Below are positions 9,141 to 36,500 of a stretch of 64,000 nt of DNA, in pieces. Both the position numbers and the translations under genes were made by a program. Source of the stretch: Bacteroidales bacterium (GTDB lineage Bacteria > Bacteroidota > Bacteroidia > Bacteroidales > ML635J-15); assembly GCA_031275085.1 (NCBI GenBank), contig JAISPG010000044.1, positions 1 through 64,000 on the forward strand. The letters are read 5' to 3'. Each line of letters begins with the position of its first letter. The first letter of the stretch is position 1. Below the pieces are notes generated by a model that did no database searches, had not been told where the DNA came from, and saw nothing but the letters and a program-made list of their open reading frames with translations.

Positions 9141-9563
9141 TTACCAGATATGAAATTTAAATTCTTGTTTATACGGGTTTTTGTTTTGTGTTTTTGTTTT
9201 GAAATTACCAGATATAATTATTGATACTTCTTGATTTTCATTATTAAATACCATTTCCACAACAGGATTTTTCAGACGCGACTCATATTTTTCCAGAGCA
9301 TCTTTTAAGTCACGGGCAAAACAATTATCATTAAAACTTTTTTCGTTAAGTTTTTTATTACTGATTTTTGAATTTTTATCACTATTTTCGAAACGGCAGT
9401 TTTTTAATGAAAACCCAAATCCACGGTCAGGCTTAAATGATTTATTTGAAGAACTTATAAGTAATTTTATAAAATCGGTTATTGCCTGCTCTACATCATT
9501 GCTCAGGCTCCCCTGATAAATATTATCAGTTGAAATTTTTAAAGGTATTTTAAATCCACTCAT
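9141..9563 (-). CDS. tssE: T6SS baseplate protein TssE (gp25-like)
   Basis: 140 residues, the length of the phage T4 gp25/TssE family, which seeds the contractile sheath on the baseplate. The N-terminal SDVEQAITDFIKLLISSS-type helix, the DRGFGF segment and especially DLKDALEKYESRLKNPVVEM correspond to the family's ALRRYEPRL core: the conserved ExR is present as ESR, with Ser in place of Pro. The end is a beta-strand pair (VSIIISGNFK ... KFHIW) typical of gp25. It lies between tssK and tssF. Confidence 0.85.
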   Translation of the reverse strand: MSGFKIPLKISTDNIYQGSLSNDVEQAITDFIKLLISSSNKSFKPDRGFGFSLKNCRFENSDKNSKISNKKLNEKSFNDNCFARDLKDALEKYESRLKNPVVEMVFNNENQEVSIIISGNFKTKTQNKNPYKQEFKFHIW

Positions 9564-9623: not shown

Positions 9624-10520
9624 CTATATTGAATCAGTATCATCTTCTTCTACTTTTACTGGTTTTTCTTCTGCTTTTTTGATTTCGAAATTCTGGATTA
9701 TTTCATCAAGACATTCGACACCTAAATTCAACATTTTGTCGATTTGCAGGTGGTCGTATCTGCAATCTGCTAATTCTTTGCATTTAATCAAATCATTTTC
9801 TGAATATTTAGTAAAAACTTCACATATTTTTTTTAATAATAATATTAAATCAAAAGGATATTCCGATAAAGAATAGTTTTTAAGTTCGGTTTGAAACAAG
9901 TATAGTTGCATTAACAAATTATCATTTTTAATTTCAAGGCTTGTTATTTGTTCGATTTTTTCTAATATCAACTTGAATTTGGCATATATTTTCGGATCGC
10001 TTGATAATGATACTGAAGGTAAAATATAGTCTTCGTCTATTTCCCAGTGATAATGTCCGATATTTTTTATTTTTAATACCGGAATTTCATAATCTGTTAA
10101 CCTGTTTATTTGTTTCAGGCTTAGCTCATATTCCGGAATTGAATAATCAGAATCGGTAAGTTTTATATATTTGTATGGATTTATTTTTAAGATTACATGT
10201 ATATCACTGTAATTATTAAATTCATCCAGATTCAGTATATATGGAAATTCCATATCATTATTGAAATTAATGATATGTCCATTTTTAGTTATGGCAACAC
10301 AAGACAATTGTGTTATAATTATTTTACTGTTTTCGATTTTAGATTCTGCATGATAATTATATCTGCCGCTTTCAGAAGGAAAAACACCATAAGATTTTAG
10401 AATATTTAAATGTCCCAGAACATTTAAATAATGCAGAAAAAAATTATCATTTGCATTCAAAATTTCGGATGTTATGAATAATCCTGATTCCCAGTTTATT
10501 TTATTATGTCTGTTATTCAT
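9624..10520 (-). CDS. tssK: T6SS baseplate protein TssK (short form)
   Basis: 298 residues. TssK trimers link the baseplate to the inner-membrane complex. The N-terminus INWESGLFITSEILNANDNFFLHYLN matches the TssK opening (W-x-E-G-M-F-L-x-P-Q-H-F-Q plus a helix). The protein is much shorter than Proteobacterial TssK (~440 residues), mainly by loss of C-terminal sequence; in those systems the C-terminal domain contacts TssL/TssM, which this locus lacks, so truncation fits the absence of a canonical membrane complex. It ends with an acidic, Lys-rich tail (EKPVKVEEDDTDS). One base separates it from tssG. Confidence 0.75.
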   Translation of the reverse strand: MNNRHNKINWESGLFITSEILNANDNFFLHYLNVLGHLNILKSYGVFPSESGRYNYHAESKIENSKIIITQLSCVAITKNGHIINFNNDMEFPYILNLDEFNNYSDIHVILKINPYKYIKLTDSDYSIPEYELSLKQINRLTDYEIPVLKIKNIGHYHWEIDEDYILPSVSLSSDPKIYAKFKLILEKIEQITSLEIKNDNLLMQLYLFQTELKNYSLSEYPFDLILLLKKICEVFTKYSENDLIKCKELADCRYDHLQIDKMLNLGVECLDEIIQNFEIKKAEEKPVKVEEDDTDSI

Positions 10521-10521
10521 T

Positions 10522-11307
10522 TTATAGTTTTGTGTTATAGTCTAAAGTAAGCTGTTCGCCTAAAATAAAGTTTTGGTTGTAATCTCTCAGTTTGAATTGA
10601 TATTCTGTTTCGAAGGGAAGGAAATACTGATGAAAAAACTCAAAAAATTCACCGGCTTCATTATTTGCAATTTTATATTCGTCGGAAGACAAGCCTTGTA
10701 TGTGAATTATGAAAATCATAATAATACAATCACTGTCATCATTATATTGTTCTTTTTTGTTGATGATATTTATATCAACTTTAGCCTCAAATATGCTTTC
10801 AAGTATGTCTTTTATAAGTCTTTTGTTTCCTCTTATTTCACTTACAGCAGGAAGTAGTGGATCTAGTCTTTTCAAATATCTGTTACCAGAATTCGTTATA
10901 GCAGATTTGTCAAATAAAAATCCTGTTAAAATATCAGTTTCGGTTTCTGCAATTTCATTTAGTTTTTTTTCAAGGCTGAGACTGAGATTAAAATATTTGG
11001 TATCAAAAGGCTGGAATAATGATCTTATTTTTTCTTTTTCTTCTTTAAATTTTTTATAATCAATTTTTTTACTTGAAATTGTATCTTCTTCAAAAAACAA
11101 ACTTTCAGGAAGGATTTCAAACAAACTGTCTCTGGCTAATTTCAGGTAAACATAATTATCCGAATTACTTACACTTACAAGGTCACCTGAATAATTCCGG
11201 TAAAAAATACCCGCCATATCCACAATAAAATTAAAGTGTCCTAATAATGAAATTATTGTTTCAGCTTTAATTTCTTCGGCATTTATATATTCATCAAAAA
11301 AATCCAT
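10522..11307 (-). CDS. tssG: T6SS baseplate protein TssG-like
   Basis: 261 residues. Assigned mainly by position (immediately before tssK and tssE) with supporting features: an N-terminal DFFDEYINAEEIKAETIISLL helix, a central PLLPAVSEIRGNKRLIKDILESIF segment resembling the TssG GR.GL..LL...F pattern, and an ending with NFILGEQLTL, like the family's C-terminal LG motif. TssG pairs with two TssF copies to form the baseplate wedge. The E1-like gene ends only 5 bases upstream, so the two are almost certainly co-translated from one message. Sequence alone would give only a moderate call. Confidence 0.7.
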   Translation of the reverse strand: MDFFDEYINAEEIKAETIISLLGHFNFIVDMAGIFYRNYSGDLVSVSNSDNYVYLKLARDSLFEILPESLFFEEDTISSKKIDYKKFKEEKEKIRSLFQPFDTKYFNLSLSLEKKLNEIAETETDILTGFLFDKSAITNSGNRYLKRLDPLLPAVSEIRGNKRLIKDILESIFEAKVDINIINKKEQYNDDSDCIIMIFIIHIQGLSSDEYKIANNEAGEFFEFFHQYFLPFETEYQFKLRDYNQNFILGEQLTLDYNTKL

Positions 11308-11312
11308 GCTTA

Positions 11313-12530
11313 TTAAAACAAAAATTCATAGTATTTCTTATCTGCGGTTAATTCCACGTAAGCATATCCTTTCTCTGTGGTAATTTGAATCACATCAAGA
11401 TAAGGAATCCCTATCTGTTTTAATGTTAAATCCATAAATGGAAATTCCTGGTCAATATTTTCATATTCGTTTATATATAATCCTCCTTCCAGAAATGAAA
11501 TATCTCTTAATTCCTTTGATGATTTTATATGATCGGATATCTTTGATTTAGGAAACATTGTTTTAAATTTTCTATTATCCGATTTAACAACAAGGCTTTC
11601 TGTGAATATATCATTTCTCAAATTTATTTCTACATTTTCAACTCCCATAGTTTTTTTAATAATATCTAACGCTTCAGAAATTTTTGTATCTGCGCTTAAT
11701 TGAGGTATTTCTACAATATCTTCCCAGTATTCATGTGACACACAATCTTTTCTGTACGATTTAAAATCAAAAATTCCGGCATCAGGATGCATCCCTTCAT
11801 AATTAAACATTGTTCCGATAAGAGTAGTAAATACTCCCTTGTCAAGATCTTCTTTATGAATGATTTTCATTGCTTCCTGTACCTGTATTGCAGCAATAAT
11901 GGAAGTAATTACCGGAGTGGTAGGTACTCTGCCGGCTTCTTCGTTTTCCTGTCCGATTGCAGGGCAGGACATTATCCTGTTTTCCATATCAGCAACTTCT
12001 TCTTCCATGAGGCTGCACTCGTAACAACTTTCATTCATTTCGTAGCCGCTTACCTGACCTTCGAGATTACCGATACCTCCGTCTATCCATACTTTTCCGG
12101 CACGGAAACTAAGCCTGTTTAAATATGTTCTGGCAGTAAGGCTGTCAAGACAACCCAAAACCACATCCACCCTGCGATATACGCCAAGTCCTACATCTGT
12201 TGCAAGATTTCCGCAAACAGGAATAACATTAATCGTAGGGTTTATTTCCATGAGTCTTTTTGCTGCAATATCTGCTTTGTATAAACCTTTGTCGGCATCT
12301 TCGGGGCGAAACAATACTGAACGGGTAAGATTACTATATTCTATTTTATCGAAATCGACAACAATAATATTACCGACACCGAACAAAGCAAGATTCTTTA
12401 ATGCTTCGTTTCCTAACGCACCTGCACCAGCTACAAGAACTTTGGCATTCTTAACTTTATCCATTTTAAACCACGAAAGCAAAGAAAAGACATCTTCGCC
12501 CCATTTTTTTCTGTTTTCTGTATTTTCCAT
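11313..12530 (-). CDS. E1-like ubiquitin-activating enzyme (ThiF/HesA/MoeB superfamily)
   Basis: 405 residues; expected to adenylate the C-terminus of the Ubl encoded at 22158-22508 and pass it to Cys. The Rossmann adenylation domain is intact: GAGALG (35-40), VVDFD (57-61) for ATP ribose, NLTR (67-70, the Arg contacting ATP) and LGCLDS (125-130). A CYEC pair (169-172) suggests a zinc knuckle, possibly completed by later Cys/His (DCVSH), since a second CxxC is not obvious. Cys189 in RIMSCPA, before a GRVPTTPVITSIIAAIQVQEA helix, occupies the position of the catalytic Cys in eukaryote-like E1s. Residues ~290-405 form an extra C-terminal region with a TLKQIGIPYLDVI segment that might fold as a ubiquitin-fold domain for E2 docking; this is inference. 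It sits between an outer-membrane barrel gene (10 bases) and tssG (5 bases). Confidence 0.9.
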   Translation of the reverse strand: MENTENRKKWGEDVFSLLSWFKMDKVKNAKVLVAGAGALGNEALKNLALFGVGNIIVVDFDKIEYSNLTRSVLFRPEDADKGLYKADIAAKRLMEINPTINVIPVCGNLATDVGLGVYRRVDVVLGCLDSLTARTYLNRLSFRAGKVWIDGGIGNLEGQVSGYEMNESCYECSLMEEEVADMENRIMSCPAIGQENEEAGRVPTTPVITSIIAAIQVQEAMKIIHKEDLDKGVFTTLIGTMFNYEGMHPDAGIFDFKSYRKDCVSHEYWEDIVEIPQLSADTKISEALDIIKKTMGVENVEINLRNDIFTESLVVKSDNRKFKTMFPKSKISDHIKSSKELRDISFLEGGLYINEYENIDQEFPFMDLTLKQIGIPYLDVIQITTEKGYAYVELTADKKYYEFLF

Positions 12531-12540
12531 AGCTATTTTG

Positions 12541-13443
12541 TTATAAAGAATAAATTAATCCTATTTCAAGTTTAAGTGACAGAATTCTGCTGCCGTTACC
12601 GCCCAAAATGTTACTTTGGTTTATCCGGTATGATGCACCGTTGAAAAAAGGATCTGAAGTGCTTTTTGATATTTTAGTCAATGAATAATCCAGTCCCGCA
12701 CCAATACGCAACATTGTATGTCTTATAAAATTATCAACCCAGTTGGAAAATGGAAAAATAATTCCTCCGGAAGCTGTTCCCCATAAAACAACAGTCGATA
12801 ATTTGTATTCGGGTTCTGTATAACTATCTCCGCCAGTATAAAATCCTAATTCCGGAATATTATATAATTCGATATCCCAATCCGGATAATATCCTTTTGA
12901 AGTATAGAATCCTGAACCGGAGATTTTTTTTGTCAACAGTATTGATGTTTTTAATCCTATTTGAAACCATCCACTGATTTTTTTCTTGTTGGGTCTGCCA
13001 AATTCCAGATATAACGGAATATCCAGATATGTTAAGAAAACAGATTCTTCAATATTATTATACAATAAATTTGCAGTAAAAAGCTTATTATCAGCATCGT
13101 AAATATCTGTAATAGTTTCGGAATAATTGTCGAAAAAAACTGTTTTTTTTAAAAAGCTTATGCCTAAACCTCCGCCTATTGCTAATATTGATGGTGTTGC
13201 TTCATTATTTGCATAATAATCAACTTTACTTAATTGTTTTCGAAAACTTACATTAGGCTGAATTGTAAAATTATTTTTCTTATTCCAGAAGTCAGATTTT
13301 AACAGGTTGTTCTGAAAAAATGGGATTCCGTATCCAAAATCGAATACAAGTGATTTTTCCGGAACTTCAAAAAATGTTGAATTTTTTTGCGCATAAGCTG
13401 ATACTGTGTATAAGCAAATTAAAATCAGAATTATTTTTTTCAT
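12541..13443 (-). CDS. Predicted outer-membrane beta-barrel protein
   Basis: 300 residues with signal peptide MKKIILILICLYTVSAYAQ. The rest is alternating amphipathic strands with aromatic girdles (for example SLVFDFGYGIPFF, YLDIPLYLEFGRP, LRIGAGLDYSLTK) and the final strand SLKLEIGLIYSL typical of PorT/OmpW-type small barrels of Bacteroidetes. A basic KKKISGWFQIGLK strand and a YTSKGYYPDWDIELYN loop follow. In a T6SS lacking the TssJ lipoprotein, an outer-membrane barrel next to the VWA/RING lipoprotein may supply the outer-membrane docking point; that is inference from context. It may be a known T6SS-iii accessory barrel, which I cannot check here. Confidence 0.75.
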   Translation of the reverse strand: MKKIILILICLYTVSAYAQKNSTFFEVPEKSLVFDFGYGIPFFQNNLLKSDFWNKKNNFTIQPNVSFRKQLSKVDYYANNEATPSILAIGGGLGISFLKKTVFFDNYSETITDIYDADNKLFTANLLYNNIEESVFLTYLDIPLYLEFGRPNKKKISGWFQIGLKTSILLTKKISGSGFYTSKGYYPDWDIELYNIPELGFYTGGDSYTEPEYKLSTVVLWGTASGGIIFPFSNWVDNFIRHTMLRIGAGLDYSLTKISKSTSDPFFNGASYRINQSNILGGNGSRILSLKLEIGLIYSL

Positions 13444-13468
13444 TTTTTATTATTTTGATGGTTTATTA

Positions 13469-15826
13469 TTACATTTTTTCTACATATTGAAATTCGGTAC
13501 TTCCAATCTGGAATTTTACACCGTCTTTCAATAAATATTCGTTGTCTTTTTTGGTTTCCCTGTTGTCAAAGAACATTCCGTTTTCCAGAACTTTCAGAAC
13601 AGGAATATTTCTTTTTTTATCAATATAGAGTTTAGCCTGTTTGTCGCTTATGTTTTCATTTTTATCCCAGTTCATCTGTATAATGCAATCATTTGCCTTT
13701 CCTATAGTAACCGGATTGCTTCCACCCACAACACTCATCCATTTGTGTATAGCTATTTCTCCTTCTTTTTTTCCGTCCTTGTACCTCAGGAAATATTTTT
13801 GTGCCGAATGATGTACAGTTATGATAGATAAACCAATTATTGCACTGCAAAGCATATAACTCATCATTACTCCGAAACTTCCAAGATTGCCGGTAGTCAA
13901 CAGTAAAACAAGAAAACTTAATATTCCGGCAATAAGTCCTCCGCTAAGAGCATGCATCCATTTTATAGTGGTTTTTACCGATATACATAATCCTATTCCT
14001 GCCCCGAATAGTAACCATGGGATCCAGTCAACATACGGATTGTTATACGGCGCATCAAGGTAAATACATATTACTGATCCCAGCAGGAATGTTATGAAAC
14101 CTATTATTGCACCTATTATTGTACGTAAAAATATGAACAGTAAAACTTCGCTTGTTTTCTGTCTGAATTCGTTGACCCATGTGAACAAAAATGTAAGTAT
14201 AAATCCTAAAGTTATTCCTGTTACAAGAAAGCCTCTTATTTTATTTGTAAAATCAACAATTATCTCGTTGGTCGCCTTATCTTTAGTGTAAAAAGTTTCA
14301 ACCAGCGACATGGTAAGTGATTCAAAAGTTAAAATACCTGCAGCATCGAAGATCCGGTATAATACCCATGCCAAAAGTCCACCAAATAAACCTGTCAAAA
14401 CCCATTTTAAATAATAAGGACTTTTTTTAGTATCGAAAGGTTTGGTTTTATCAAAAAAATGTTGAATCCCTTTATCGCAATTCTGTCCGTACTCAAGGCA
14501 TTTGTGGCCATTCTCCTGCCAGCACGGCAACCAATGTGTTTTATGATGGCATTTTACAACTACCCTGTCGCCCGGCATAAACCGCTCCTGACACATATAA
14601 CATTCTTCGGATGAATCATCGGAAGGGGTGTACGATATTACATGTTTTTTCTCAAAATTATCGTATTTATAAATGAAATATGGAACAACAACCTGTAGTA
14701 TGAAGAATACTATAAATATCAGGACAAGTCCGAATATTACATACAACAGGGTATTGTCGGCTCCTGTTTCTATAGGATTATTCGGGCTTCCTATTTTGTA
14801 ATTATACGAGCCTATTGCTTTTTCTTTTTCGTCTTTTTCAATTTTGACGGTTAATGTCAGTGGTTGTCCTGTATATTTTTTTTCGGAAGGATTTCTTAAT
14901 ACCAATTCATAATCTGCTTTTAACGGGTCAACTATCGTATTAATGAACTCCGGTAATATTTTCGGGGCTTCGGTAAGTCTGAAAAATCCTCCTTTAAAAT
15001 CGTCCTGACGTATTCCAACACATAGCTGTTCCAGATCTTTATCATTCTTTAGGTCGCTTCCGTAGCTAAATGTATATATCTTTGCATTTTGATTGAAAGA
15101 CCGGTCTGTCTGCGACACTTTTTCAAAAAAACTGTTGTATTCGTCGTATACGGTATTCAGATCTTTTACTTTTCCATCGGTAAAAACTATTAAAAATCTT
15201 TGTATGGAATCGTTTAAAGGATCCGAATTTATAAGGTCCGAAAAATTATTTTCAATGGCTTTGTAGAATATTTTATTTTTTGCTTTGCTTACATAAAATT
15301 CATTTTCAAACTGATCAAAAGTTTTACCTGTAATAATACCTTTACTGCTTGATTCATTATCAAAAAAGGAAATATTAACAACACTATCGGGCAAAGTGTT
15401 TACAAGGTCTTCTATTGTATTTTTCATTGTCAGCATATCTGCGTCCTGAATAGTGCTGCTTCTGTCGATAAGAAATGAAAATATTATATTACCTGTTATT
15501 CTTCTTTCTCCTCTTATGTCTTTTATTTCAATAAATTCAGGGAATTTGCTATCTTTAAAAGGAAACTCCTGAATTTTAATATCAGTTCTTTTTAAGTTAA
15601 GAAAATCTTCTACAAATATTTTTTTGTCGTTTTCTGTATAAATACTGAATGGAAAAATAAGAGTATCTGCTTTATTGGAAGGACGGTAATCTCTGTCCAT
15701 TATTTTTATTTTATACTTAAAATTTTCCCCTGAATAAATATCACCGCTGTGTGTTTTTTCCTGATTACATGCGGAAAAACTGATTATAAGTGTAGCTGCA
15801 AGAAATAATCTGATTATAATATTCAT
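13469..15826 (-). CDS. Lipoprotein with VWA domain, RING-type zinc finger, multiple membrane helices and FHA domain
   Basis: 785 residues from ATG 15826, preferred over 15865 because it begins a lipoprotein signal (MNIIIRLFLAATLIISFSAC|NQ). Order: periplasmic VWA domain with DRSST at 121-125 (MIDAS DxSxS, last position Thr) and FTDGK; a strand-rich segment; membrane helix ~350-375 (LLYVIFGLVLIFIVFFILQVVV); cytoplasmic zinc finger with C409, C412, C426, H428, H431, C435, C443, C450, i.e. CxxC...CxHxxH...C...C...C in the pattern of prokaryotic RING fingers, including the characteristic CW.ENGH; about six to seven further helices; and a C-terminal FHA-like domain (VTIGKANDC ... ISDKQAKLY ... GVKFQIGSTEFQY), a phosphothreonine-binding fold. 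RING families of this kind are known from bacterial Ub-like operons and act as predicted E3s. VWA recalls TssR and the helices may replace TssN of T6SS-iii. Confidence 0.85.
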   Translation of the reverse strand: MNIIIRLFLAATLIISFSACNQEKTHSGDIYSGENFKYKIKIMDRDYRPSNKADTLIFPFSIYTENDKKIFVEDFLNLKRTDIKIQEFPFKDSKFPEFIEIKDIRGERRITGNIIFSFLIDRSSTIQDADMLTMKNTIEDLVNTLPDSVVNISFFDNESSSKGIITGKTFDQFENEFYVSKAKNKIFYKAIENNFSDLINSDPLNDSIQRFLIVFTDGKVKDLNTVYDEYNSFFEKVSQTDRSFNQNAKIYTFSYGSDLKNDKDLEQLCVGIRQDDFKGGFFRLTEAPKILPEFINTIVDPLKADYELVLRNPSEKKYTGQPLTLTVKIEKDEKEKAIGSYNYKIGSPNNPIETGADNTLLYVIFGLVLIFIVFFILQVVVPYFIYKYDNFEKKHVISYTPSDDSSEECYMCQERFMPGDRVVVKCHHKTHWLPCWQENGHKCLEYGQNCDKGIQHFFDKTKPFDTKKSPYYLKWVLTGLFGGLLAWVLYRIFDAAGILTFESLTMSLVETFYTKDKATNEIIVDFTNKIRGFLVTGITLGFILTFLFTWVNEFRQKTSEVLLFIFLRTIIGAIIGFITFLLGSVICIYLDAPYNNPYVDWIPWLLFGAGIGLCISVKTTIKWMHALSGGLIAGILSFLVLLLTTGNLGSFGVMMSYMLCSAIIGLSIITVHHSAQKYFLRYKDGKKEGEIAIHKWMSVVGGSNPVTIGKANDCIIQMNWDKNENISDKQAKLYIDKKRNIPVLKVLENGMFFDNRETKKDNEYLLKDGVKFQIGSTEFQYVEKM

Positions 15827-15857
15827 ATTTTTTAGTTTAATGTATTTTTTATTATTG

Positions 15858-18548
15858 TTATTCATATTTTCTTGTTCTCAACCATGTTACCATATCTTTA
15901 AAATATGTTGAATGCCGGTTCTCTTCTGTAAAATCAAATATGTTATCTGCATTTTTCGGCACAATATCCATTTTATCACTGTCAGGCTGGTATAATGCAC
16001 AAAAATCAATTTTGCCGGCATCCGGAATGTATTCATTAAGTATTTTGTTATCAATAACATCATAAGCTATAAGCAAACAACCAATGGGAGAAGGATTTCC
16101 ATAGTTACCGGGATTTTCAGTATCAGAAAATTCTTCTATTATTATATTTTTCCGGTACGTCTGACTTCCATACGGGATGTCGCCGTAAAAATATCCGTTA
16201 AGCCCGGCTTTGTGGTTGACAATAGCTTTACTTATGCTTATTATTGAAGACGGGCTGAATAAATAGTTTATACCTTTTGCCGGTAGATTTACAGGGTAAT
16301 AATTCGGTATTTCTTCCTTAATATCTGCAGGTTTTGTCGCCCATGCCTGAAGTTCATCAAAAGATATGAATTTTTTAGGATTATTTTTATTGTATTTATC
16401 ACCCATATCATTATTGTTCATGGAACCGTCGAGTTTAGGCGAGAAAAATGCCGTCCTGAAATCAGATGTCCGGGGATCAATAACAATAGCAAGCATTCTG
16501 TTCGGATGCTCGTAATAAACTAATTGCGACTGGGCTCCTATGTCAAAGTTCGACAGAAATAATCCTAATTCGGGATGAGAGTGCATCCATGCAGTACAGA
16601 GGTATTCTCTTCCGGTTTTTTTCCTCAGGTTTTCAATCTCTGCATATAATTTCAATTGTATCTCGTCTCCAAAACTAACTCTGTATTCTCCAAATTCGGC
16701 ATCATCGCCAGGTTCTATGACAAATTCTATACTAATATTATATGTTTTCTTCGTAATATCGTTGTATTCCCAGTTTCCTACTAAAAAGCATCCTGTTTCA
16801 GGGATTTTTTTCTCCGAAGCCAGAAAATCCGAAAAGAACTGGTGTATCTTTATAATTGCCTGCCTGCTGAAATATACGTAACGGATTGCAGTATCGTCAA
16901 ATATGGTACGCATGTCTATTTCATAATACTCACTTCCTGTTTTGTTTTTAAGATAATCCAGGCCTACCATATATTCCGGCATTTTGTCGATTTCGGAAAG
17001 CATGTCATTTTCATCATCATCGTCGTCAAAATCTACAATACCTGTATTTTCATCTTCGATTCGTTTGTTGTTTTTTCTTCTGATAATTTGTTTGATGTAA
17101 AACACAATGCCAATTATAACTAATAATAATACAACTCCGGTTATTATAAGCATTAACCATGGGATTTCAATTTCTTCAAGCTTGCTCTCATAATAATCCA
17201 GGTCATCATAAAATTTAGGAATCTCTCTTTTTAGGTTTTGTACAAAATATCTATCAGCTTCAGCAGTATAATTATCAACTTCTATTTTGATAAAATCAGT
17301 GCTTCTTTTTTCTATTATGGAAAAATTATTTTTTAATGTATCTAAATCCAGAATAATAATATTTTTGCCGATCCATTTTGTAAAACTTGATTCTTCGGTT
17401 TTATTTTTTATTTTCTCAAATAGTTTTTTATCTTTAACTGTGTCTATATTAAATAAGACCTCGTTACGATATCTGGTTTCAATATCTGACATTTCCTGTT
17501 TGTTTAATGTCACCGACATTTTAATTATTCCAAATATCAGATTATTCAGCCTATCTTTAAATTTATCTATTTCCTGTTTTTGTTTATCATTCAATTTTTG
17601 ATTTTTTACCTCATTATCTATTTCATTAAGCAAAATTTCACATTCTTTTAATAATGACTTTAGAAGTAATGAATCTTTTCCACTTAATCCTCCAAAATTC
17701 TTTTCACATTTAGAGATTTTTTTATCATATTCTGAAAGGTTTAAAGATTTAGGTTTACTTTCTTGTGGCTTATTATCTGTATTTGTTTTTTTCCCTTTAC
17801 CAGTATTTTGTATATCCGTCGTATTTATTTTTGTATTATCATTAGCTTGTTCTTCTTTTAAAGATTTTATTTTTTCATTTGAACGATCTTTTAATCCTTC
17901 TAAAGATTTTTTATATTCTAAAAGCTGTTTTTTTTGTTCATCAACATTTTCATTTTTGTAATCATTCTCCAACTGACTTATGAAGGTTTCAATTTTCCCT
18001 ATACTATTCTGTAATGTAGTAACTTCACGAGATTTTTCTATAACAATGGTTAAACTGTCAATGGAGATTTTATAATGATTATAGTCTTTTGTTTCTACTT
18101 TTTTTTCTTCTTTTACCCTTTCTCCAATTGTTATATCATTCTTTTGTGATAATGAAACAAATTGTGATTTTTCTGTAATTTTGTAAAATGGTAATATATT
18201 AGCATCGCACTTAACATCTTCTATTATCAAACTATTTTTTGAACGAATAATTATATCATCAATATTTTCGCAATATCCAATTACATCCAAATTCTTTTTT
18301 TCAAAAGGTTTTTCATAATTATCTTTAAATATTTGTGTATTGGTAAAGATCTTTTTAGTTTTTTTACTAAATATAATTATATCATTTCCGCTATCATTAG
18401 TTATGATTAGTGTTTTATTTTCTCCTTTATAGTCATAAACCGCCGTCACTCCCTGTGTATAAACTTTATTATTTGTACACACAAAAGCAAAACATATTAT
18501 GCAATAAATAAGTAGTCTGTTAAAATTTTTGTATCTGCAGTTATTCAT
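15858..18548 (-). CDS. Membrane-anchored JAMM/JAB-domain protease (deubiquitinase-like)
   Basis: 896 residues. A signal peptide (about 1-32) is followed by a long periplasmic part that is Lys/Glu-rich and largely coiled coil (~160-460), one membrane helix at ~463-487 (IPWLMLIITGVVLLLVIIGI), an acidic linker (DFDDDDDEND) and a cytoplasmic JAB/MPN+ domain (~540-715). The catalytic set is complete: Glu584 in PETGCFLVG, His656 and His658 in HSHPELGLFLS, Ser666 and Asp669 (HxH-P-x7-S-x2-D). About 180 further residues follow. Prokaryotic JABs paired with E1/E2/Ubl remove or mature Ubl; because this Ubl already ends in Gly, removal from targets seems likelier. The long periplasmic coiled coil suggests it is also a structural part of the T6SS envelope complex. 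Confidence 0.9.
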   Translation of the reverse strand: MNNCRYKNFNRLLIYCIICFAFVCTNNKVYTQGVTAVYDYKGENKTLIITNDSGNDIIIFSKKTKKIFTNTQIFKDNYEKPFEKKNLDVIGYCENIDDIIIRSKNSLIIEDVKCDANILPFYKITEKSQFVSLSQKNDITIGERVKEEKKVETKDYNHYKISIDSLTIVIEKSREVTTLQNSIGKIETFISQLENDYKNENVDEQKKQLLEYKKSLEGLKDRSNEKIKSLKEEQANDNTKINTTDIQNTGKGKKTNTDNKPQESKPKSLNLSEYDKKISKCEKNFGGLSGKDSLLLKSLLKECEILLNEIDNEVKNQKLNDKQKQEIDKFKDRLNNLIFGIIKMSVTLNKQEMSDIETRYRNEVLFNIDTVKDKKLFEKIKNKTEESSFTKWIGKNIIILDLDTLKNNFSIIEKRSTDFIKIEVDNYTAEADRYFVQNLKREIPKFYDDLDYYESKLEEIEIPWLMLIITGVVLLLVIIGIVFYIKQIIRRKNNKRIEDENTGIVDFDDDDDENDMLSEIDKMPEYMVGLDYLKNKTGSEYYEIDMRTIFDDTAIRYVYFSRQAIIKIHQFFSDFLASEKKIPETGCFLVGNWEYNDITKKTYNISIEFVIEPGDDAEFGEYRVSFGDEIQLKLYAEIENLRKKTGREYLCTAWMHSHPELGLFLSNFDIGAQSQLVYYEHPNRMLAIVIDPRTSDFRTAFFSPKLDGSMNNNDMGDKYNKNNPKKFISFDELQAWATKPADIKEEIPNYYPVNLPAKGINYLFSPSSIISISKAIVNHKAGLNGYFYGDIPYGSQTYRKNIIIEEFSDTENPGNYGNPSPIGCLLIAYDVIDNKILNEYIPDAGKIDFCALYQPDSDKMDIVPKNADNIFDFTEENRHSTYFKDMVTWLRTRKYE

Positions 18549-18564
18549 AACTTATGGTTTTTTA

Positions 18565-19257
18565 TTAGTATTTGTTACCTATTTCGTCAATATCCGTATT
18601 TTCTAATGCATCATTTAATTGTTGTTGCTTTTGCTGGAGTTCCTGTTCTTTTCGTAATGTTTCCTGTTGTCTTTTTACCATGATTTTTGCTCTTATCTGC
18701 ATTATTATCGGAAATATTGCCATTAAAGCAAGGAAAGCTATTCCAAGTATTTTAAACCACTCTATTGGTGGTTTTGGTTCATCTGTATGTTTACTTTTTT
18801 CCAGTTCGTTAAGTTTAGTAATAACCTGATCGTAATTTGTTTTATATTCGTCAAGTTTTTCCTCCAGATCTGAGTTGGTAATTATGATTTTGTTAAAATC
18901 TGCATCTTTTTCCCTTCTTATGATCTTTTCATTATATTGTTCAGCTATTTTTTTGTATTTATTGATCTTTTCTTCCGTTATTTCATCAGGATTTTCTTTT
19001 TTTATTCCTTCAAGTAGTTTTAAAATTTCATAATTACGGTCCGTAATAAATCTGCTATGGTTATCTATTATATGTTGCAAAGAGTCTTCTTCCGATATGT
19101 ATTCATCGCTGTAGGGCCTGATAATTTCCTTTTTTGTTATTGTTATTTCCTCATCGGATCCTGTTCCGTAAGTTGTCAGCTCATGAGCAATGCCGTTTGC
19201 TGCAGTGCCGGACATTATAAACATAAATGACATAAGGTAAAATATGTGTTTTATCAT
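18565..19257 (-). CDS. Secreted/membrane coiled-coil protein of the T6SS envelope module
   Basis: 230 residues, family not recognised. A signal peptide (MIKHIFYLMSFMFIMSGTAANG) precedes a charged, helical periplasmic part (~40-160, Glu/Lys-rich coiled coil), a membrane helix at ~168-188 (FKILGIAFLALMAIFPIIMQI) and a short cytoplasmic coiled coil rich in Gln (RKEQELQQKQQQ). The topology matches the JAB protein encoded 16 bases downstream: periplasmic coiled coil, single helix, cytoplasmic tail. The two could pair through their coiled coils. TssO-like proteins of Bacteroidetes T6SS have a comparable layout, but I see no sequence basis to name it so. Confidence 0.7.
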   Translation of the reverse strand: MIKHIFYLMSFMFIMSGTAANGIAHELTTYGTGSDEEITITKKEIIRPYSDEYISEEDSLQHIIDNHSRFITDRNYEILKLLEGIKKENPDEITEEKINKYKKIAEQYNEKIIRREKDADFNKIIITNSDLEEKLDEYKTNYDQVITKLNELEKSKHTDEPKPPIEWFKILGIAFLALMAIFPIIMQIRAKIMVKRQQETLRKEQELQQKQQQLNDALENTDIDEIGNKY

Positions 19258-19265
19258 AATTATTA

Positions 19266-20432
19266 TTATTTTATCAGATTATTTATATCATTGTATCTTT
19301 TTTTGTATTCTTTGTATTCCTGTGGAAATTTATTCCTGCAACTTTCAGTGCTGTTGTTATCCAGTTTTTTTGTTATTTCAATAAGACGTGTTTTAAATTT
19401 ACCCAGATCTTCTTCTTTTACTCTTGCAACATCTACTTCTTTTCTAAGGCTGAATAATTGTTCGCTGGCATCTGTCAATATTTTTTTTGTGTTGGAACAT
19501 TGTGTAGTTGTTACTACAATACAATTAATATCTATATCCTGAATTTTTTTGTATGCCATTTCATTTGTTTTAATTGCTTCAACTAATTTTGTACAATTTT
19601 TAAAATCAGTATTTGTTTCATAAGGGTTAGTCTGCCTCTTTTTTTGCATAGCTTCATCTTTTTTTGATTTTGCTTCTTTACAGGTATTCGGCTTATTTAA
19701 ACTTATGATTTCGCTGTAATAACTATCAAGGACACTCGTATTTTGTCGTATTTCTGTTATAGTATTATTTAACTTTGGATCTTCGCATGGTTTATATGGT
19801 TCAAGTGTTATTTTAAAGATAACCGGTTCTGCTAAGAACAGGAAATTGTGGTTTCTTCTTTTGAGAGAAAAAGACTTTACTTTGTCGATGGCATAATAAA
19901 GGTGCAGTTTTATTTCGCAATAGTTTTCATTTTTATCTTCAATATTATAAGTTAACCTGGATTCCGAACCGGCTGCTCTCAATTCCAGATAACTACATGA
20001 TCCATCTTCATTTCCAGTCACTAGTTTCAGGTTTTTATTGACCCCATCAGATTTTATTATTTTGCTGTAATCCGGATTATCTTTGTTCTTTCTTTTCAGG
20101 CGTTTCATTTTGCGGTTATACCATACTTTTGTTTCTTCTTTTTTAAATTCCGGGAAATTATGCGTTCCGCTAATAAAGCAGACAAAACCTACATTTTCGG
20201 TATTTGCTCCGTCCATGGTAAGAATTATATTATTTTCTTCCTGATCCCAGTTTAATTGTACCGGAAATGAGATTTTTGTTTCAGAGTTATATTTTGCAAG
20301 AGGTTTCAGGGTGACTGACAGATCTTTTGCCTGTGGATTATCATATGTTAGCGTTATATCATATTTTTGTTCCTGAGATATGGAAAACAGGGTGATAAAA
20401 ATTAAACTAATTGTTATTATCGTTTTTTTCAT
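19266..20432 (-). CDS. Secreted protein of the T6SS/Ubl cassette, paralogue of its neighbour
   Basis: 388 residues with signal peptide (MKKTIITISLIFITLFSIS|Q). Residues ~25-220 are beta-rich and parallel the whole of the 188-residue protein encoded just upstream: both have a strand pair ending in LTMDGANTENVGF / IMILGDGNTFTGK, a basic kkkYkKfr-like segment and a terminal strand pair with FLFLAEPVIFKI / PKPVFFQLAEN. The remaining ~170 residues are helical and Cys-containing (PCEDPK, PNTCKEA, FKNCTK, TTTQCSN, TESCRN), suggesting disulfides in the periplasm. No known domain is recognised. By position it belongs to the envelope part of the secretion machine. Confidence 0.7.
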   Translation of the reverse strand: MKKTIITISLIFITLFSISQEQKYDITLTYDNPQAKDLSVTLKPLAKYNSETKISFPVQLNWDQEENNIILTMDGANTENVGFVCFISGTHNFPEFKKEETKVWYNRKMKRLKRKNKDNPDYSKIIKSDGVNKNLKLVTGNEDGSCSYLELRAAGSESRLTYNIEDKNENYCEIKLHLYYAIDKVKSFSLKRRNHNFLFLAEPVIFKITLEPYKPCEDPKLNNTITEIRQNTSVLDSYYSEIISLNKPNTCKEAKSKKDEAMQKKRQTNPYETNTDFKNCTKLVEAIKTNEMAYKKIQDIDINCIVVTTTQCSNTKKILTDASEQLFSLRKEVDVARVKEEDLGKFKTRLIEITKKLDNNSTESCRNKFPQEYKEYKKRYNDINNLIK

Positions 20433-20445
20433 AAAATATCAGTTT

Positions 20446-21012
20446 TTAGTTAATATTTATTTTTATTGTAACCTGGCGTGATTTTGCTATGAACCAGTGA
20501 GGGTATTTTTTGCCGGGTTGCGATATATAGAATTCCATGTTTAATTCTATTGATTTTGAGTTTTCGGCTAATTGAAAGAACACGGGTTTAGGGTTTGCCG
20601 TTATTATTTCATAGTCATTGTCAAATTTTTTGTATAGCTTTATTTTTTCGCTTGAATTGAAGAATGTTCTGAATTTTTTATATTTATTTTTGTAGTGTTT
20701 GTCTGCATTCACATTAAGATTGTTTTTTTGTAATGTTTCAAATGGCATTTCCGATGAAAATAACCAGACGGATCTTTTACCTGTAAATGTGTTGCCATCC
20801 CCGAGTATCATTATTAAGATATTTTTATCGGTGATTTGAAATGTTATTGGTAATTTTAGCAATAGTTTATTATCCTCACTGCCCGACAGGTCAACCGTGA
20901 TTCTCTGCTGTTTCTGCCCGCCTGCCGACAAGGTAACTTTTTCCTGTGCAGTAATGGTTTTTAGGGCAAACAGCAAAAATGTAATTAATATTATATTTAT
21001 TTTGACTTTCAT
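20446..21012 (-). CDS. Small secreted beta-rich protein of the T6SS/Ubl cassette
   Basis: 188 residues with signal peptide ending TAQ|EK. The mature part is beta-rich: TVDLSGSEDNKLLLKLPITF, ILIMILGDGNTF and a final KSRQVTIKININ strand, with a basic YKNKYKKFRTFF segment. It resembles the first ~200 residues of the downstream 388-residue protein and so arose by gene duplication or by loss of the helical C-terminus. No recognised domain. It starts directly at the E2 stop (overlapping by one base), so it is translationally coupled to a cytoplasmic E2 although it is itself exported, which argues that both act in one machine. Confidence 0.7.
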   Translation of the reverse strand: MKVKINIILITFLLFALKTITAQEKVTLSAGGQKQQRITVDLSGSEDNKLLLKLPITFQITDKNILIMILGDGNTFTGKRSVWLFSSEMPFETLQKNNLNVNADKHYKNKYKKFRTFFNSSEKIKLYKKFDNDYEIITANPKPVFFQLAENSKSIELNMEFYISQPGKKYPHWFIAKSRQVTIKININ

Positions 21013-21560
21013 TATTGATCTTGTTTAAATTTAAGCCAGTTGTTAGGTTCTGCCTGTTTTATTACCCATTCGGCAACTTCAAGGTCTTCGGGGTAGGGAT
21101 ATTCGTTTATTGCAAAATAATCTTCGTATTTCAGGTATTCAATAACACGGTCGATGTAATCGGCAAGGCTTACAAATGTGCCATGGTCTGTAATATTAAG
21201 ACATACGTTTCCTTTAAAATCTCCAAAATATCTTATATTTGGATGCCACACATCTGTTTTAAACTTAAACTCGGGTCTTCCGGCAGGAAAACTGTTCGGC
21301 AGTTTGATACGCATTACATGTTCATTGCCGAATATGGGTTCCTGTAATCCATTTGCATTTTTTTCCCTGACACCGGTAATTGATTTTATATGAAAAAATA
21401 TGTCATACTCTACAGGAAGATTGTCCCCATTAGGTTTACGTATGATATATTCAACTTTGTCGTCATTTTTAAACCTTTTATCTATTGCCTTCCATTCTTT
21501 AAATAGCCTGTAACTTCTTCCCGAAAGATTTTTTTCATCATAACTATCTATTCCACTCAT
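21012..21560 (-). CDS. E2-like ubiquitin-conjugating enzyme, copy A
   Basis: 182 residues from ATG 21560; an in-frame ATG at 21593 exists, but alignment with copy B (both begin M...Y.EK..SGR..RLFKEWK) supports the downstream one. The UBC fold signature is nearly eukaryotic: PEFKFKTDVWHPNIRYFG with the HPN tripeptide at 106-108 and catalytic Cys120 in GNVCLN, i.e. the usual HPN-x(10-12)-Cys spacing. The C-terminal helices (LADYIDRVIEYLKY, DLEVAEWVI) follow. It should receive activated Ubl from the E1 at 11313-12530 and pass it to targets, alone or with the RING protein. It is preceded by copy B and followed, with a one-base overlap, by the 188-residue secreted protein. Confidence 0.93.
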   Translation of the reverse strand: MSGIDSYDEKNLSGRSYRLFKEWKAIDKRFKNDDKVEYIIRKPNGDNLPVEYDIFFHIKSITGVREKNANGLQEPIFGNEHVMRIKLPNSFPAGRPEFKFKTDVWHPNIRYFGDFKGNVCLNITDHGTFVSLADYIDRVIEYLKYEDYFAINEYPYPEDLEVAEWVIKQAEPNNWLKFKQDQ

Positions 21561-21594
21561 AAATTTTATTTTATTAAATGTTTTCGTTTTCAAA

Positions 21595-22140
21595 TTAAAA
21601 TTCCAGCCAGTTATTAGGTTCTGCCTGTGTTATTACCCATTCGGCAACTCTAAGGTCTTCGGGATAGGGATATTCGTTTGATGCATAATAATCATCGTAC
21701 TGCAGATAATCCACAATACGATCAAGATAATCTGCAAGAGGGGTATATACGCCATGGTCTGTAAGGTTCAGGCAGACTCTTCCCTGAAAATCCCCGAAGT
21801 ACCTGATATTAGGATGCCAGATTTTTGTTTTAAACATAAATTCGGGAAATCCGCTAACAGCAGGAAATCCGTTCGGAAGATTGATATGAAGGATATGTTT
21901 GTCGCCGAAAATCGGTTTTTGCAATCCTTGTTCGTCTTTTTCCCCTACTCCTGTAATAGATTTTATATTAAAAATTATTTCATAAGCAACAGGCAGGTTT
22001 ACATTATTTCGTTTAAGTACGGAATAACCGATCCTTTTATCATCCTGACATCTTTGATCGATTTGCTTCCATTCTTTGAATAACCTTAGATTTCTGCCTG
22101 AGAAGTCCTTTTCATTATATTGTTCTATTTCTCTTTGCAT
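21595..22140 (-). CDS. E2-like ubiquitin-conjugating enzyme, copy B
   Basis: 181 residues, tandem paralogue of copy A with most of the core conserved: SGRNLRLFKEWKQID, KSITGV, WHPNIRYFGDF with HPN at 109-111, catalytic Cys123 in GRVCLN, and the same PYPEDL.VAEWVI.QAEPNNWL end. It differs by a three-residue insertion (AVSGF) before the PEF strand and in surface residues. Both copies keep the catalytic residues, so neither is an inactive variant. Two active E2s beside one E1 and one Ubl suggest either different targets or an obligate pair. It follows the Ubl gene by 17 bases. Confidence 0.93.
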   Translation of the reverse strand: MQREIEQYNEKDFSGRNLRLFKEWKQIDQRCQDDKRIGYSVLKRNNVNLPVAYEIIFNIKSITGVGEKDEQGLQKPIFGDKHILHINLPNGFPAVSGFPEFMFKTKIWHPNIRYFGDFQGRVCLNLTDHGVYTPLADYLDRIVDYLQYDDYYASNEYPYPEDLRVAEWVITQAEPNNWLEF

Positions 22141-22157
22141 TTTATTACCGGTATTTT

Positions 22158-22508
22158 TTAACCTGCTATTACTTTATTTATAAGGATAAGATTATCTCCA
22201 GGTTTTACTCCGTAATCAAAAAGTGTTTGTATTTCGCCATCGGTATTTTTTTCGTGAAATACTTCTTTTTTCCCGTTTTCAAGGTTTATACGACCCAAAA
22301 GGTATGTTATTCTTTGCCCGCCACTGTTCATTTCGGAGAGAGGCCAGTATTTGTCGGGTTTATCCTGTGCCAGCTTTTTAATATTCCTTACAGTTTCCTT
22401 AATGTCGTGTTTAGGGTTCACAACTTTTACTGCTACGGATTTACTTTGATAGGTTACTGTAATTTTAAATTCCTGATTCCCCTGTTGGTTTTCTTGTTGA
22501 TTTTCCAT
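22158..22508 (-). CDS. Ubiquitin-like beta-grasp protein
   Basis: 116 residues. After a Gln/Asn-rich N-terminal tail (MENQQENQQGNQ) comes a beta-grasp pattern: strand FKITVTYQSKSVAVKV, helix IKETVRNIKKLAQ, strand region TYLLGRINLENG, a 3-10 helix TLFDYGVKPGD and last strand LILINKVIAG. The FDYGVKPGD.L.L segment and C-terminal position correspond to the ubiquitin D-Y-N-I-x-K/P-x-x-x-L-x-L-V end. It terminates in Ala-Gly without an extension, so it could be adenylated directly by the E1 without prior cleavage. Identification rests on fold pattern plus adjacency to two E2s, not on high similarity to ubiquitin. It is the first gene of the Ubl cassette. Confidence 0.85.
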   Translation of the reverse strand: MENQQENQQGNQEFKITVTYQSKSVAVKVVNPKHDIKETVRNIKKLAQDKPDKYWPLSEMNSGGQRITYLLGRINLENGKKEVFHEKNTDGEIQTLFDYGVKPGDNLILINKVIAG

Positions 22509-22636: not shown

Positions 22637-25426
22637 TTATTTAACTATAAGTTTTTCCGTTATTATTACGTAATTTCCGGTTTTTATGCTGATGATATAA
22701 ACTCCCGGGTTTAATTTTGAGTTATGTATATAGTTATTTTCAGTATTTATTTCGGATTGAAATATTAAAGTTCCTGTAACCGAATATATTTTTAATTCTG
22801 CTGTTTTTACATCGCTGCCGGCAATAAGGTCGTTGAAATAAATTGTGAAGTCTCCGACAGACGGGTTAGGGAATATTTTTACATTTTTGGTCTGTGCCGG
22901 CGAATGTTCATAGGTATTGGTAAAGTTTCCGCATAAAGAATCGTGTATTTCCGAAACATATACTTTGTATACGGCATCTTTTTCAAGGGTTTCACCAAAA
23001 TCAGGCGGATAAAAGAATTGTTTTGTTGCACCTTTTACAGGTAATTCGTTTTTATACCACTGATACATGTATTCACCCGAAGGATTTGGATATAAAAGTA
23101 TATAAGGATCACCGTTTTTACCGGTTTTAAAGGCTATATCATTTAAATCGGGAGCGCTGCCTGAAGACATTGATACATTATATTCCGCATTGTATTCGCA
23201 ACCATCGTTATCTGTTACGTTTACAAATAGTTTTCCTGTACTGCCGGCGATATCCTTGTTCCAGTTCACAATAACCGAATTTCCGGTATTATCTGAAATT
23301 ATTTGTCCTTGTTCTATCTGCCAATTATATGTTACATTGGTAAGGTGTCCGACAGAATAAATAAGTTCTTTGGAATTGCTGCATACAGGATTTGAGACTT
23401 GTGTAAACTGTACTTCCGGTGTTTCTTTTACTCTGATAGGTAGAGGTTGACTGTAAGAGCTTTCGCTGCAGGCGTTTATTCCTTTTACTTTTAAATTTGC
23501 AGTTCCTGAGAATTCGGGATTCCAATAAACAGATATTTTACTGCCGTTTCCTGCAACAGTTCCGGCATAAGCGGGAGATAGATCCCAATCATAATTGTCG
23601 GTATCGGAGTTTCCCTGAATTTCATAATTATTTTTTTCGGTCAGCTGGCAAACAAAGTTACTTCCTGTTGGTGCCTGCGGAGTTCCGGGTAACGGGTCAA
23701 CCACCAGCATCCAGTTGCCTGATGAGGCTGTCCAGTTATTACAGGTTGCATCCTTAACTTCGCGGGTATAGTTATAAATTCCTGCTTCAGTCCGAACAGG
23801 CGGAGTATAAGCAGATAAATCCGAATTACTAATCACTTCATCATTTACTTTCCAGCGATAGGCTACGGGGGCATTTCCTCCGGAAGCCTCAACAGCGCTG
23901 CTTATTTGAACAGGCTGACCTCCGTTACATATTGTTTCACCCGTTGTTGATATGGAACCGGCATTAAATTCATCGCGTATGGTTAATGTCCATGAGCCTG
24001 TTGATTGTGCGAAATCTGCCGTACATTTACTGTCTTTTACCCAGCGTGTATATAGTCCTGCCTCAGTTGGGGTAAAATTGGGAGAGTTACTGCCTGAGAC
24101 AATTGTTCCGTTCTTTCTCCATTCGTAGATAATATTTCCACTTCCGCCTTCTGCGTTCTGAATGCTTGTTATTGTAGTTGCAGGAGTATTATGGCATATA
24201 GTTTCACCTGTTGTTGCAATACTTCCAACCGTAAAGCCAGGAAGAACTGTTAATGTAAATATTCCTCCGGACTGAATATAATTTCCGTTTGTACAGATAT
24301 TATCCTTAGCTTCTCGGGTATAATTATAAATTCCTGCAACCGTCTGTACCGGTGGCGTATAGCCTGCATTGTCAGTTCCGGTTATATCATTTCCATTTAC
24401 TTTCCACCGGTAAGTTATGTCATTGTCTCCGCCTGAAGCATTGGCTGAGTTTAATATTTGATCCGGCTGAGTATTTAAACATATTGTATCTCTGCCTGAT
24501 GTTATGGAACCTGCATTAAATCCATCACGTACAGTTAATGTCCATGAACCGGATGAAGGAGCCAAAGTTGTTGAACACCTTCCGTCTTTTGCCAAACGTG
24601 TATATGTACCCGCTTCGGTTGGAGTGAAAGTTGAAAAATCAGGGGAACTATAATCAGGAATAGTCATTCCGTTTCTCAACCACTTATAGGTTATATTACC
24701 ATCTCCGCCTGATGCATTCTGAGTGCTTATTATTGTGGTTGCAGGAGTGTTGTAGCAAATTGTTTCACCTTCACCTGCAATAGTACCTGTGCTAAAATCC
24801 GGAAGTACATTAACTGCTATATTACCGCTTATTGCAGTTCCGCAGCTATTGCCTGATGTAACACGACAGCGGTAATATGTTGTGGCAATTAAAGTAGCAG
24901 GTCTATAAGTAACTCCTGTTCCGTTGCTTACATTTGTCCAGCCGGAGGTTCCTGTAGAACTTTGCTGCCATTGGTATGTCAAACTTGCCCCTCCTGTTGC
25001 TGTAATTGACAATGCTTCTTCAGGAGCAGTACTATAACAAATTGTCTGCTGAACGGATTGTGATGTTATCTGTAACTGCGGGTAAACAGAAATTAAAGCT
25101 GCATTACCGGTATTAACAGTTCCATCGCAACCACTGGTAACTTTTCTTCTGTAATACATATTGGAAGTTAAGTTCGGAGTTCTGTAATTTTGCGTGTTAT
25201 TTATACCTGATGCATTAGTCCATCCGGAACTACCGCTTGTACTTTGTTCCCATAAATATGTGTTACCGGAGTCTCCTCCTGTAGCTGCTGCTAAATTTAT
25301 TGTTGCAGAGCTGTTATAACAAACCGATTGTGTCGGAGGAGTACCCTGTGAAAGTGCATTGCATTGTGCCATGACTGTAATAATACCTGCAACAAGGAAT
25401 AGGGTTGTAAAAAGTATTTTTTTCAT
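22637..25426 (-). CDS. Large repetitive surface protein with T9SS type A sorting domain
   Basis: 929 residues with signal peptide MKKILFTTLFLVAGIITVMAQ. Two opening modules (VCYNSSATINLAA..., TICYSTAPEEALSITATGG...) are followed by at least four ~90-residue Ig/SprB-like repeats starting GETICxNTPATTI or DTICLNTQPDQI and containing GGxxNIxYxWxxNG and EAGxYTRxxKD, then two PKD-like modules and a C-terminal T9SS sorting domain (KIFPNPSVGDFTIYF ... NPGVYIISIKTGN). It is probably a surface adhesin exported by the Por system. Such a protein in the middle of a T6SS locus is unexpected; it may have been inserted, since it is bounded by a mobile-looking palindrome on one side and by a repeat tract and unrelated gene on the other. 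Confidence 0.9.
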   Translation of the reverse strand: MKKILFTTLFLVAGIITVMAQCNALSQGTPPTQSVCYNSSATINLAAATGGDSGNTYLWEQSTSGSSGWTNASGINNTQNYRTPNLTSNMYYRRKVTSGCDGTVNTGNAALISVYPQLQITSQSVQQTICYSTAPEEALSITATGGASLTYQWQQSSTGTSGWTNVSNGTGVTYRPATLIATTYYRCRVTSGNSCGTAISGNIAVNVLPDFSTGTIAGEGETICYNTPATTIISTQNASGGDGNITYKWLRNGMTIPDYSSPDFSTFTPTEAGTYTRLAKDGRCSTTLAPSSGSWTLTVRDGFNAGSITSGRDTICLNTQPDQILNSANASGGDNDITYRWKVNGNDITGTDNAGYTPPVQTVAGIYNYTREAKDNICTNGNYIQSGGIFTLTVLPGFTVGSIATTGETICHNTPATTITSIQNAEGGSGNIIYEWRKNGTIVSGSNSPNFTPTEAGLYTRWVKDSKCTADFAQSTGSWTLTIRDEFNAGSISTTGETICNGGQPVQISSAVEASGGNAPVAYRWKVNDEVISNSDLSAYTPPVRTEAGIYNYTREVKDATCNNWTASSGNWMLVVDPLPGTPQAPTGSNFVCQLTEKNNYEIQGNSDTDNYDWDLSPAYAGTVAGNGSKISVYWNPEFSGTANLKVKGINACSESSYSQPLPIRVKETPEVQFTQVSNPVCSNSKELIYSVGHLTNVTYNWQIEQGQIISDNTGNSVIVNWNKDIAGSTGKLFVNVTDNDGCEYNAEYNVSMSSGSAPDLNDIAFKTGKNGDPYILLYPNPSGEYMYQWYKNELPVKGATKQFFYPPDFGETLEKDAVYKVYVSEIHDSLCGNFTNTYEHSPAQTKNVKIFPNPSVGDFTIYFNDLIAGSDVKTAELKIYSVTGTLIFQSEINTENNYIHNSKLNPGVYIISIKTGNYVIITEKLIVK

Positions 25427-36342: not shown

Positions 36343-36500
36343 ATATTCTGTTTTTAATTTATTTTTGTTTATTTTTCTTTTTATTATGCTTATTATTTTA
36401 TTAAACATTTGATTTTCATCGTTTTATTATTGTTATTTAAGTTCAATGTATTAATAATAATTTTCAACATATATAACTCTATTATTCACAATTTGCACTT

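Follow-up and report, generated by a model that had tools for sequence, protein, structure and literature searches.

A predicted ubiquitin-like conjugation pathway integrated into a type VI secretion locus of Bacteroidales

The locus and its conjugation enzymes

The 64,000-nucleotide stretch analysed here (hereafter, the window) comes from contig JAISPG010000044.1 of a Bacteroidales bacterium and carries, on its minus strand, a type VI secretion system (T6SS) locus into which a cassette for a ubiquitin-like (Ubl) protein pathway is built. In the direction of transcription, the locus begins with ClpV, TssB, TssC, two Hcp genes, VgrG, an effector region and a PKD-domain protein with a type IX secretion system (T9SS) sorting domain. 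Then follows the cassette, i.e., Ubl, two E2 enzymes (E2a and E2b), SecB, SecA, a coiled-coil (CC) protein, a JAMM protein, a vWA-RING-FHA protein with transmembrane (TM) segments, a barrel-like protein and E1, and downstream of E1, on the same strand, are TssG, TssK, TssE, TssF and an M23 peptidase. The gene set given in a preliminary description of this DNA, with Ubl-E2-E2, JAMM, RING, barrel-like and E1 genes between clpV-tssBC-hcp-vgrG and tssG-K-E-F, is borne out, and the TssB/C sheath, Hcp, VgrG, ClpV and TssE/F/G/K found together identify the locus as a T6SS.

Ubl (22158..22508) is a beta-grasp protein of 116 amino acids that ends in ...VIAG-COOH, leaving the terminal Gly free, and Gly is the last residue in 71 of the 73 related loci counted (described below; five duplicate rows were dropped for motif counts). 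E2a (21595..22140) has an HPN motif and a predicted catalytic Cys123, and E2b (21012..21593), which has a TTG start in the list of open reading frames (ORFs), shares 65% identity with E2a and has Cys131 as the predicted catalytic residue; HPN and Cys are kept in 73/73 E2 ORFs. E1 (11313..12530) combines an adenylation domain with a Cys189 that is invariant in 28/28 aligned sequences and with a C-terminal part that appears UFD-like from the range of the structural alignment. In structural comparisons with SAE2 and UBA1, the alignment of the predicted E1 extends to about residue 397, through the UFD (root-mean-square deviation 4.3-7 Å); the MoeB and ThiF alignments end at residue 267. The nucleotide motif of E1 was found in 69/71 loci and a loosely defined motif surrounding its catalytic Cys in 67/71, and the zinc ligands are probably C169/C172/C263/H266. 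The nearest PDB entries to the E1 profile are UBA7/UBA6/UBA1, MoeB and SAE2, with Citrobacter BubCD far weaker (1e-11). The folds are ThiF, UBC and JAB by profile, not the unrelated folds that the preliminary description had named as the outcome that would speak against it, and the catalytic residues are conserved and the motifs intact; Ubl conjugation itself is predicted.

The remaining cassette proteins are mostly predicted membrane or periplasmic proteins. The JAMM protein (15858..18548) has a large N-terminal part, a TM segment at residues 465-483 and a C-terminal JAMM domain whose residues E584, H656, H658, S666 and D669 are invariant in 21 rows (JAMM pattern present in 24/24). The vWA-RING-FHA protein (13469..15865; hereafter, the RING protein) consists of a vWA domain (131-281), a TM segment (376-394), the RING, further TM stretches (546-679) and an FHA domain (719-788). 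Its RING ligands are C422, C425, C439, H441, H444, C448, C456 and C463; the ligand pattern recurs in 77/79 cases, so the zinc ligands of this putative E3 are conserved, and the RING stretches match Pfam Prok-RING_1 in 36/37 cases at E<=1. Prok-RING_1 is said to stem from work of Burroughs in 2011 and to have bacterial members with TM helices, and the present RING family may already appear there; to our knowledge, that work makes no statement of a link to T6SS. The preliminary description took the JAMM and RING proteins for membrane proteins with large periplasmic parts; hydropathy and charge fit this and place both in the inner membrane, with the catalytic domains on the cytosolic side. As a separate observation, a protein kinase gene (L015:2300-3625; Pfam Pkinase 2e-43) lies downstream of TssF in the locus of genome G414, and its product could be a partner for the FHA domain that the RING protein carries.

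The CC protein (18565..19257) is single-pass (TM 170-188), with a basic tail after the TM segment that is predicted to be cytosolic by charge. SecA (19266..20432), with a signal peptide recognised by eye and no further TM segment, and the small SecB (20446..21012), with a hydrophobic stretch at residues 3-21 of its N-terminus, are both probably periplasmic, but the paralogy that had been assigned to these two secreted proteins is not supported. The barrel-like protein (12541..13443) matches Pfam OMP_b-brl_2 under the cut-off. The C-termini of CC proteins in cassette loci are -YP[TS]I-like (of 57 sequences, 52 have Pro at -3 and 53 a final Ile), and those of TssK in cassette loci read acidic-F/Y-x-P-x-I (of 73 loci, 54 have Pro at -3 and 62 a final Ile). 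TssK and the CC protein may, judging from these tails, have one cytosolic receptor common to both; the window's own TssK (..DTDSI) and CC protein (..GNKY) are without the full motif.

Downstream of the cassette, the baseplate genes are TssG (10522..11307), TssK (9624..10520; short, 298 amino acids), TssE (9141..9563) and TssF (7472..9136). Upstream are ClpV (36501..38978), TssB (35845..36408; called from position and similarity), TssC (34456..35820), the two Hcp (TssD) genes (33995..34411 and 33512..33928) and VgrG (31469..33463), followed by the effector region, which includes genes for a Tle1-like lipase and a DUF4280 protein. The PKD-domain protein with the T9SS sorting tail (22637..25426) precedes Ubl both in the window and in genome G076, and PKD proteins are found there in further loci; PKD-like domains have been reported for TssP of T6SSiii (PMC10781749). 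A promoter and terminator scan of positions 5600-25500 gave no clear excess over shuffles (111 vs. 97.6, sd 11, and 6 vs. 10.5, respectively).

Distribution, linkage and co-inheritance with baseplate genes

Among 100 relatives, including the window's own genome, the JAMM protein was found in two, the window's genome and G076, the latter with identical order from ClpV to TssF. The RING-protein profile matched 6 of 393 genomes of the order, among them G414 and G207, in which the window's locus recurs. A scan of an 84,980-species collection with a single pattern gave 97 relatives, of which the best 80 were used; these are Bacteroidales or Bacteroidota with a single exception labelled Lachnoclostridium (L022). 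Two gene orders recur in the 84 loci annotated: architecture A, Ubl-E2-...-JAMM-RING-(barrel)-E1-TssG-K-E-F, and architecture B (Prevotella, Parabacteroides, Alistipes and others), E1-TssG-K-E-F-Ubl-E2-x390-x290-RING. The family profile of the CC protein matches the x290 protein, and TssF stands directly before Ubl, as in architecture B, in 50 of the 71 loci holding both genes.

With six duplicate rows dropped, 75 of the 78 RING-protein loci counted had a Tss gene in the stretch, or 75 of 80 when two of the dropped rows that had no remaining twin and no Tss gene (L023, which is G270, and L099, which is G046) are restored. The scenario weighed in the preliminary description, in which related genomes would always carry the cassette away from T6SS genes, therefore did not hold. 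E1 and TssG are on the same strand and less than 500 bases apart in 70/70 loci with both, E1 lying just before TssG with a median overlap of 4 bases, and E1, E2, Ubl, the RING protein and TssG/K/E/F are all on one strand in every one of the 65 loci having all eight. In one instance (L038/L043), two RING-protein loci with baseplate genes are adjacent on one contig.

Based on FastTree patristic distances from 65 complete loci, Spearman correlations of E1/E2/Ubl/RING with TssG/K/F/E distances were 0.83-0.94, compared to 0.92-0.98 for baseplate genes among themselves and a highest value of 0.34 among 300 label permutations per pair. Shared splits numbered 26-39 of 60-62 for pathway vs. baseplate trees against 31-39 of 62 for baseplate vs. 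baseplate trees. That is, the Ubl-pathway trees track the baseplate trees nearly as closely as the latter track one another. A T6SS variant with an integrated Ubl pathway is real and recurrent, and appears to be carried by many Bacteroidales.

Two further features of the window deserve mention. Where the T6SS locus ends, next to the M23 peptidase, lies a protein whose C-terminal part is a serum amyloid A domain (positions 5690-6763; PF00277, 1e-20), and positions 26188-26553 hold an ORF full of a CRTEYVT-like repeated unit, as judged by eye, which may be non-coding repeat DNA.

TssN and the position of the envelope complex

The preliminary description placed the cassette where envelope-complex genes would be expected. 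We searched 50 cassette genomes, drawn from 74 non-duplicate ones, with the TssN (PF17555) and TssC (PF17541) profiles. TssN was over the cut-off in none of the 50, although a very divergent TssN could escape this profile, and TssC in 48; PF17555 also found no TssN in the window's own genome, which is 89% complete. These results strengthen the idea that the cassette stands in place of the envelope complex, since TssN was not found over the cut-off in cassette genomes. In the 393 genomes of the order, PF17555 was over the cut-off in eight (14 at E<=0.001), none of them among the six with the cassette, and TssC in 18, of which seven have TssN, five the cassette, six neither and none both. The exclusion of TssN and cassette gives a Fisher p of 0.10 on the 18 alone and of 4e-6 with the 48 added, related genomes not being independent.

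Comparisons of the cassette families by hhalign with TssN/O/P/Q/R, with TssP/Q/R represented by one sequence each, gave no match (best E of about 0.02-0.06, over short ends; Ubl vs. TssN, E 0.84), and no TssO/P/Q/R homologue was found among the cassette families, a genome-wide search for these four not having been made. The same comparison recovered TssG (2e-28), TssK (9e-25) and TssE (2e-16), and homology to TssN/O/P/Q/R is not supported within this comparison. In a quick, midpoint-rooted TssC tree of 48 rows (18 order genomes and 30 cassette genomes), the eight TssN rows and four rows with neither TssN nor cassette form one clade (Shimodaira-Hasegawa-like approximate likelihood ratio test support of 100), and outside it are the 34 rows with the cassette, a further, ambiguous row that comes from a cassette genome, and genome G286; two label changes suffice to explain the tree. 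Because, under midpoint rooting, the cassette is on all TssC branches outside the T6SSiii clade except G286, it might even be the older Bacteroidota arrangement.

Compared to T6SSiii (Bongiovanni 2024, PMC10781749), the window locus shares the TssC family PF17541, homologous TssE/F/G/K, Hcp, VgrG and ClpV, and the presence of a vWA protein and a beta-grasp domain. It differs in that TssN was not found over the cut-off, the membrane cassette is without a profile match to TssNQOPR, a free Ubl is encoded together with E1, E2, RING and JAMM, and TssC falls outside the T6SSiii clade. Our best reading, held at about even odds, is a distinct Bacteroidales T6SS type in which a RING/CC/JAMM platform would stand where TssNQOPR stands in T6SSiii, with a Ubl cascade on its cytosolic face.

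A possible role at the baseplate and its rivals

From the conserved motifs, topology and linkage, we infer how such a system might work. The platform would lie in the inner membrane and consist of the RING and CC proteins, the JAMM protein in loci that have it, and periplasmic partners. E1 would adenylate the C-terminal Gly of Ubl and then take Ubl on Cys189, Ubl would be handed to E2 (Cys123/Cys131), and the membrane RING would deliver E2~Ubl to the incoming baseplate. Ubl would then be coupled to a protein of the baseplate or of the platform; the substrate is a guess, with TssK, TssG and a platform tail as first candidates. Attached Ubl could stabilise or license docking of the baseplate, and JAMM would take it off for recycling. 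In T6SSiii, the baseplate is reported to dock on TssN, whose cytosolic part is beta-grasp-like, with the vWA lipoprotein TssR in the periplasm (PMC10781749). By analogy, the cassette may repeat these themes in other proteins, i.e., a periplasmic vWA domain, a multi-pass platform and a beta-grasp protein, the last encoded here as a free protein alongside enzymes for its attachment and removal. In addition, TssK has at most 325 amino acids in 17/24 architecture A loci vs. 377-405 in eight T6SSiii sequences. We favor conjugation at the platform-baseplate interface because of these repeated docking themes and the short TssK of architecture A. A bolder version, in which docking itself is driven by conjugation, the free Ubl attached by the platform RING replacing the fused beta-grasp dock of TssN and assembly being switched across the envelope by Ubl attachment and JAMM removal, is rather doubtful.

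Several observations weigh against this interpretation. TssN matches below the cut-off (19 bits) occur in 2/50 cassette genomes, and since TssN and cassette are both missing from six TssC-positive genomes of the order, failure to match TssN is by itself poor evidence. TssK is not short in architecture B (median 397 amino acids, 49 loci) nor in 6/24 architecture A loci. In G270, JAMM, RING and barrel genes are on a 7.6-kb contig without E1 or any Tss gene, an unrelated ORF following and the contig ending the order after the barrel gene. G286 (L173) groups with the cassette systems in the TssC tree and has a T6SS locus with kinase- and FHA-looking genes (by eye), but no RING protein, JAMM or E2 in its genome; E1 and Ubl, looked for at the locus alone, were not found there either, and at the cassette's place are an M23 peptidase and a 107-amino-acid gene. 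G286 suggests a natural loss or replacement of the cassette, and indicates that a T6SS in this lineage, whether functional or not, can be retained in its absence. Related cassettes also exist away from T6SS genes. G046 (L019, L194) has one beside SrfB and a second virulence-factor family, with another JAMM gene further on and no T6SS genes in the stretch, and G532 (L192) and G626 (L193), which belong to another order of the class and were the only two of 395 phylum genomes besides the window's, have an E1-E2-JAMM-RING core without T6SS genes in the stretch, near membrane genes and a gene that we read as PAAR-looking. No PF17541 match was found in these three genomes, and no Ubl was recognised at the G532 and G626 cassettes. 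The E1-E2-JAMM-RING core may thus be older than, or independent of, its link to T6SS. Finally, the loci of architecture B are without a JAMM gene; a search of 17 such genomes gave no match in 14, a weak one (18 bits) in G456, a C-terminal piece at a contig end in G454, and a full JAMM elsewhere in the genome of G468, which has two TssC genes. Consequently, reversal would not be universal.

Alternatively, the protein tagged with Ubl might be cargo (Hcp, VgrG or effectors) that is to be loaded or released, and not part of the baseplate or platform. The architecture A cassette does sit between vgrG/effector genes and baseplate genes, and five architecture B loci (L051, L052, L069, L082, L086) have hcp/vgrG in the stretch, some with DUF4280 genes; however, the architecture B cassette is built into the baseplate run E1-tssG-K-E-F-Ubl-E2, and most architecture B stretches, which span just 10 kb, have no vgrG, so we regard cargo tagging as unlikely. 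We view with similar reserve a reading in which the cassette serves as an accessory module, for regulation or quality control, atop an unrecognised envelope complex. G286, the T6SS-free cassettes of G046, G532 and G626, and the six TssC genomes with neither TssN nor cassette all favor such a module, but TssN over the cut-off in 0/50 cassette genomes (TssO/P/Q/R not having been searched genome-wide) and a membrane anatomy as expected for an envelope complex argue against it. It is also improbable that the membrane proteins are the T6SS envelope complex and Ubl a structural subunit without covalent conjugation, as is thought for YukD and the EccD/TssN beta-grasp domains, because a purely structural Ubl would need neither catalytic Cys nor terminal Gly, both of which (Cys in E1 and E2, Gly in Ubl) are retained in almost every locus counted. 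An anti-phage Ubl island (Bil/Bub/CBASS-like) placed in the T6SS locus by chance is very improbable. In its favor, E1-E2 models of the PADLOC library of 2023 hit the adenylation domain of E1 (best 2.5e-15); against it stand the E1-tssG neighbours in 70/70 loci, co-inheritance with baseplate genes, and no PADLOC match at E<=0.01 for the E2s, Ubl, JAMM or RING protein. A mobile element was rejected; the RING protein had no match in plasmids or phages, and E1 none in viral contigs.

Several known systems come close to the cassette. The prokaryotic E1-E2-RING-JAB-Ubl systems (Burroughs 2011; also the archaeal C. subterraneum cascade) have the same enzyme set, and Bil, Bub and CBASS Cap2 share the E1-E2-JAB-Ubl logic, although the present E1 is nearer UBA7/UBA6/UBA1, MoeB and SAE2 and the cassette is linked to T6SS genes. 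EccD and YukD of type VII secretion also place a Ubl fold in a secretion machine, but YukD is reported as not conjugated (PMC1779556), whereas E1 and E2 are present in cassette loci. Among the matches listed for titles and abstracts of the open-licence literature, none joins T6SS with an E1-E2-Ubl pathway; in the passages of PMC10781749 that use the word, 'ubiquitin' refers solely to the EccD/TssN fold, and term searches found neither 'ubiquitin' nor 'ThiF' in PMC4714493, PMC8102008 and PMC12694586.

If the proposed arrangement is true, T6SSs without detected TssN would gain a candidate envelope complex, and the bacterial E1-E2-RING-JAMM cascade would gain a concrete machine to act on, making the function of such operons directly testable. 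Ubiquitin-style control would then be at work in a contractile injection system. More broadly, the Ubl pathway inside this T6SS locus points to bacteria possibly operating a contractile weapon through tagging of the ubiquitin kind.

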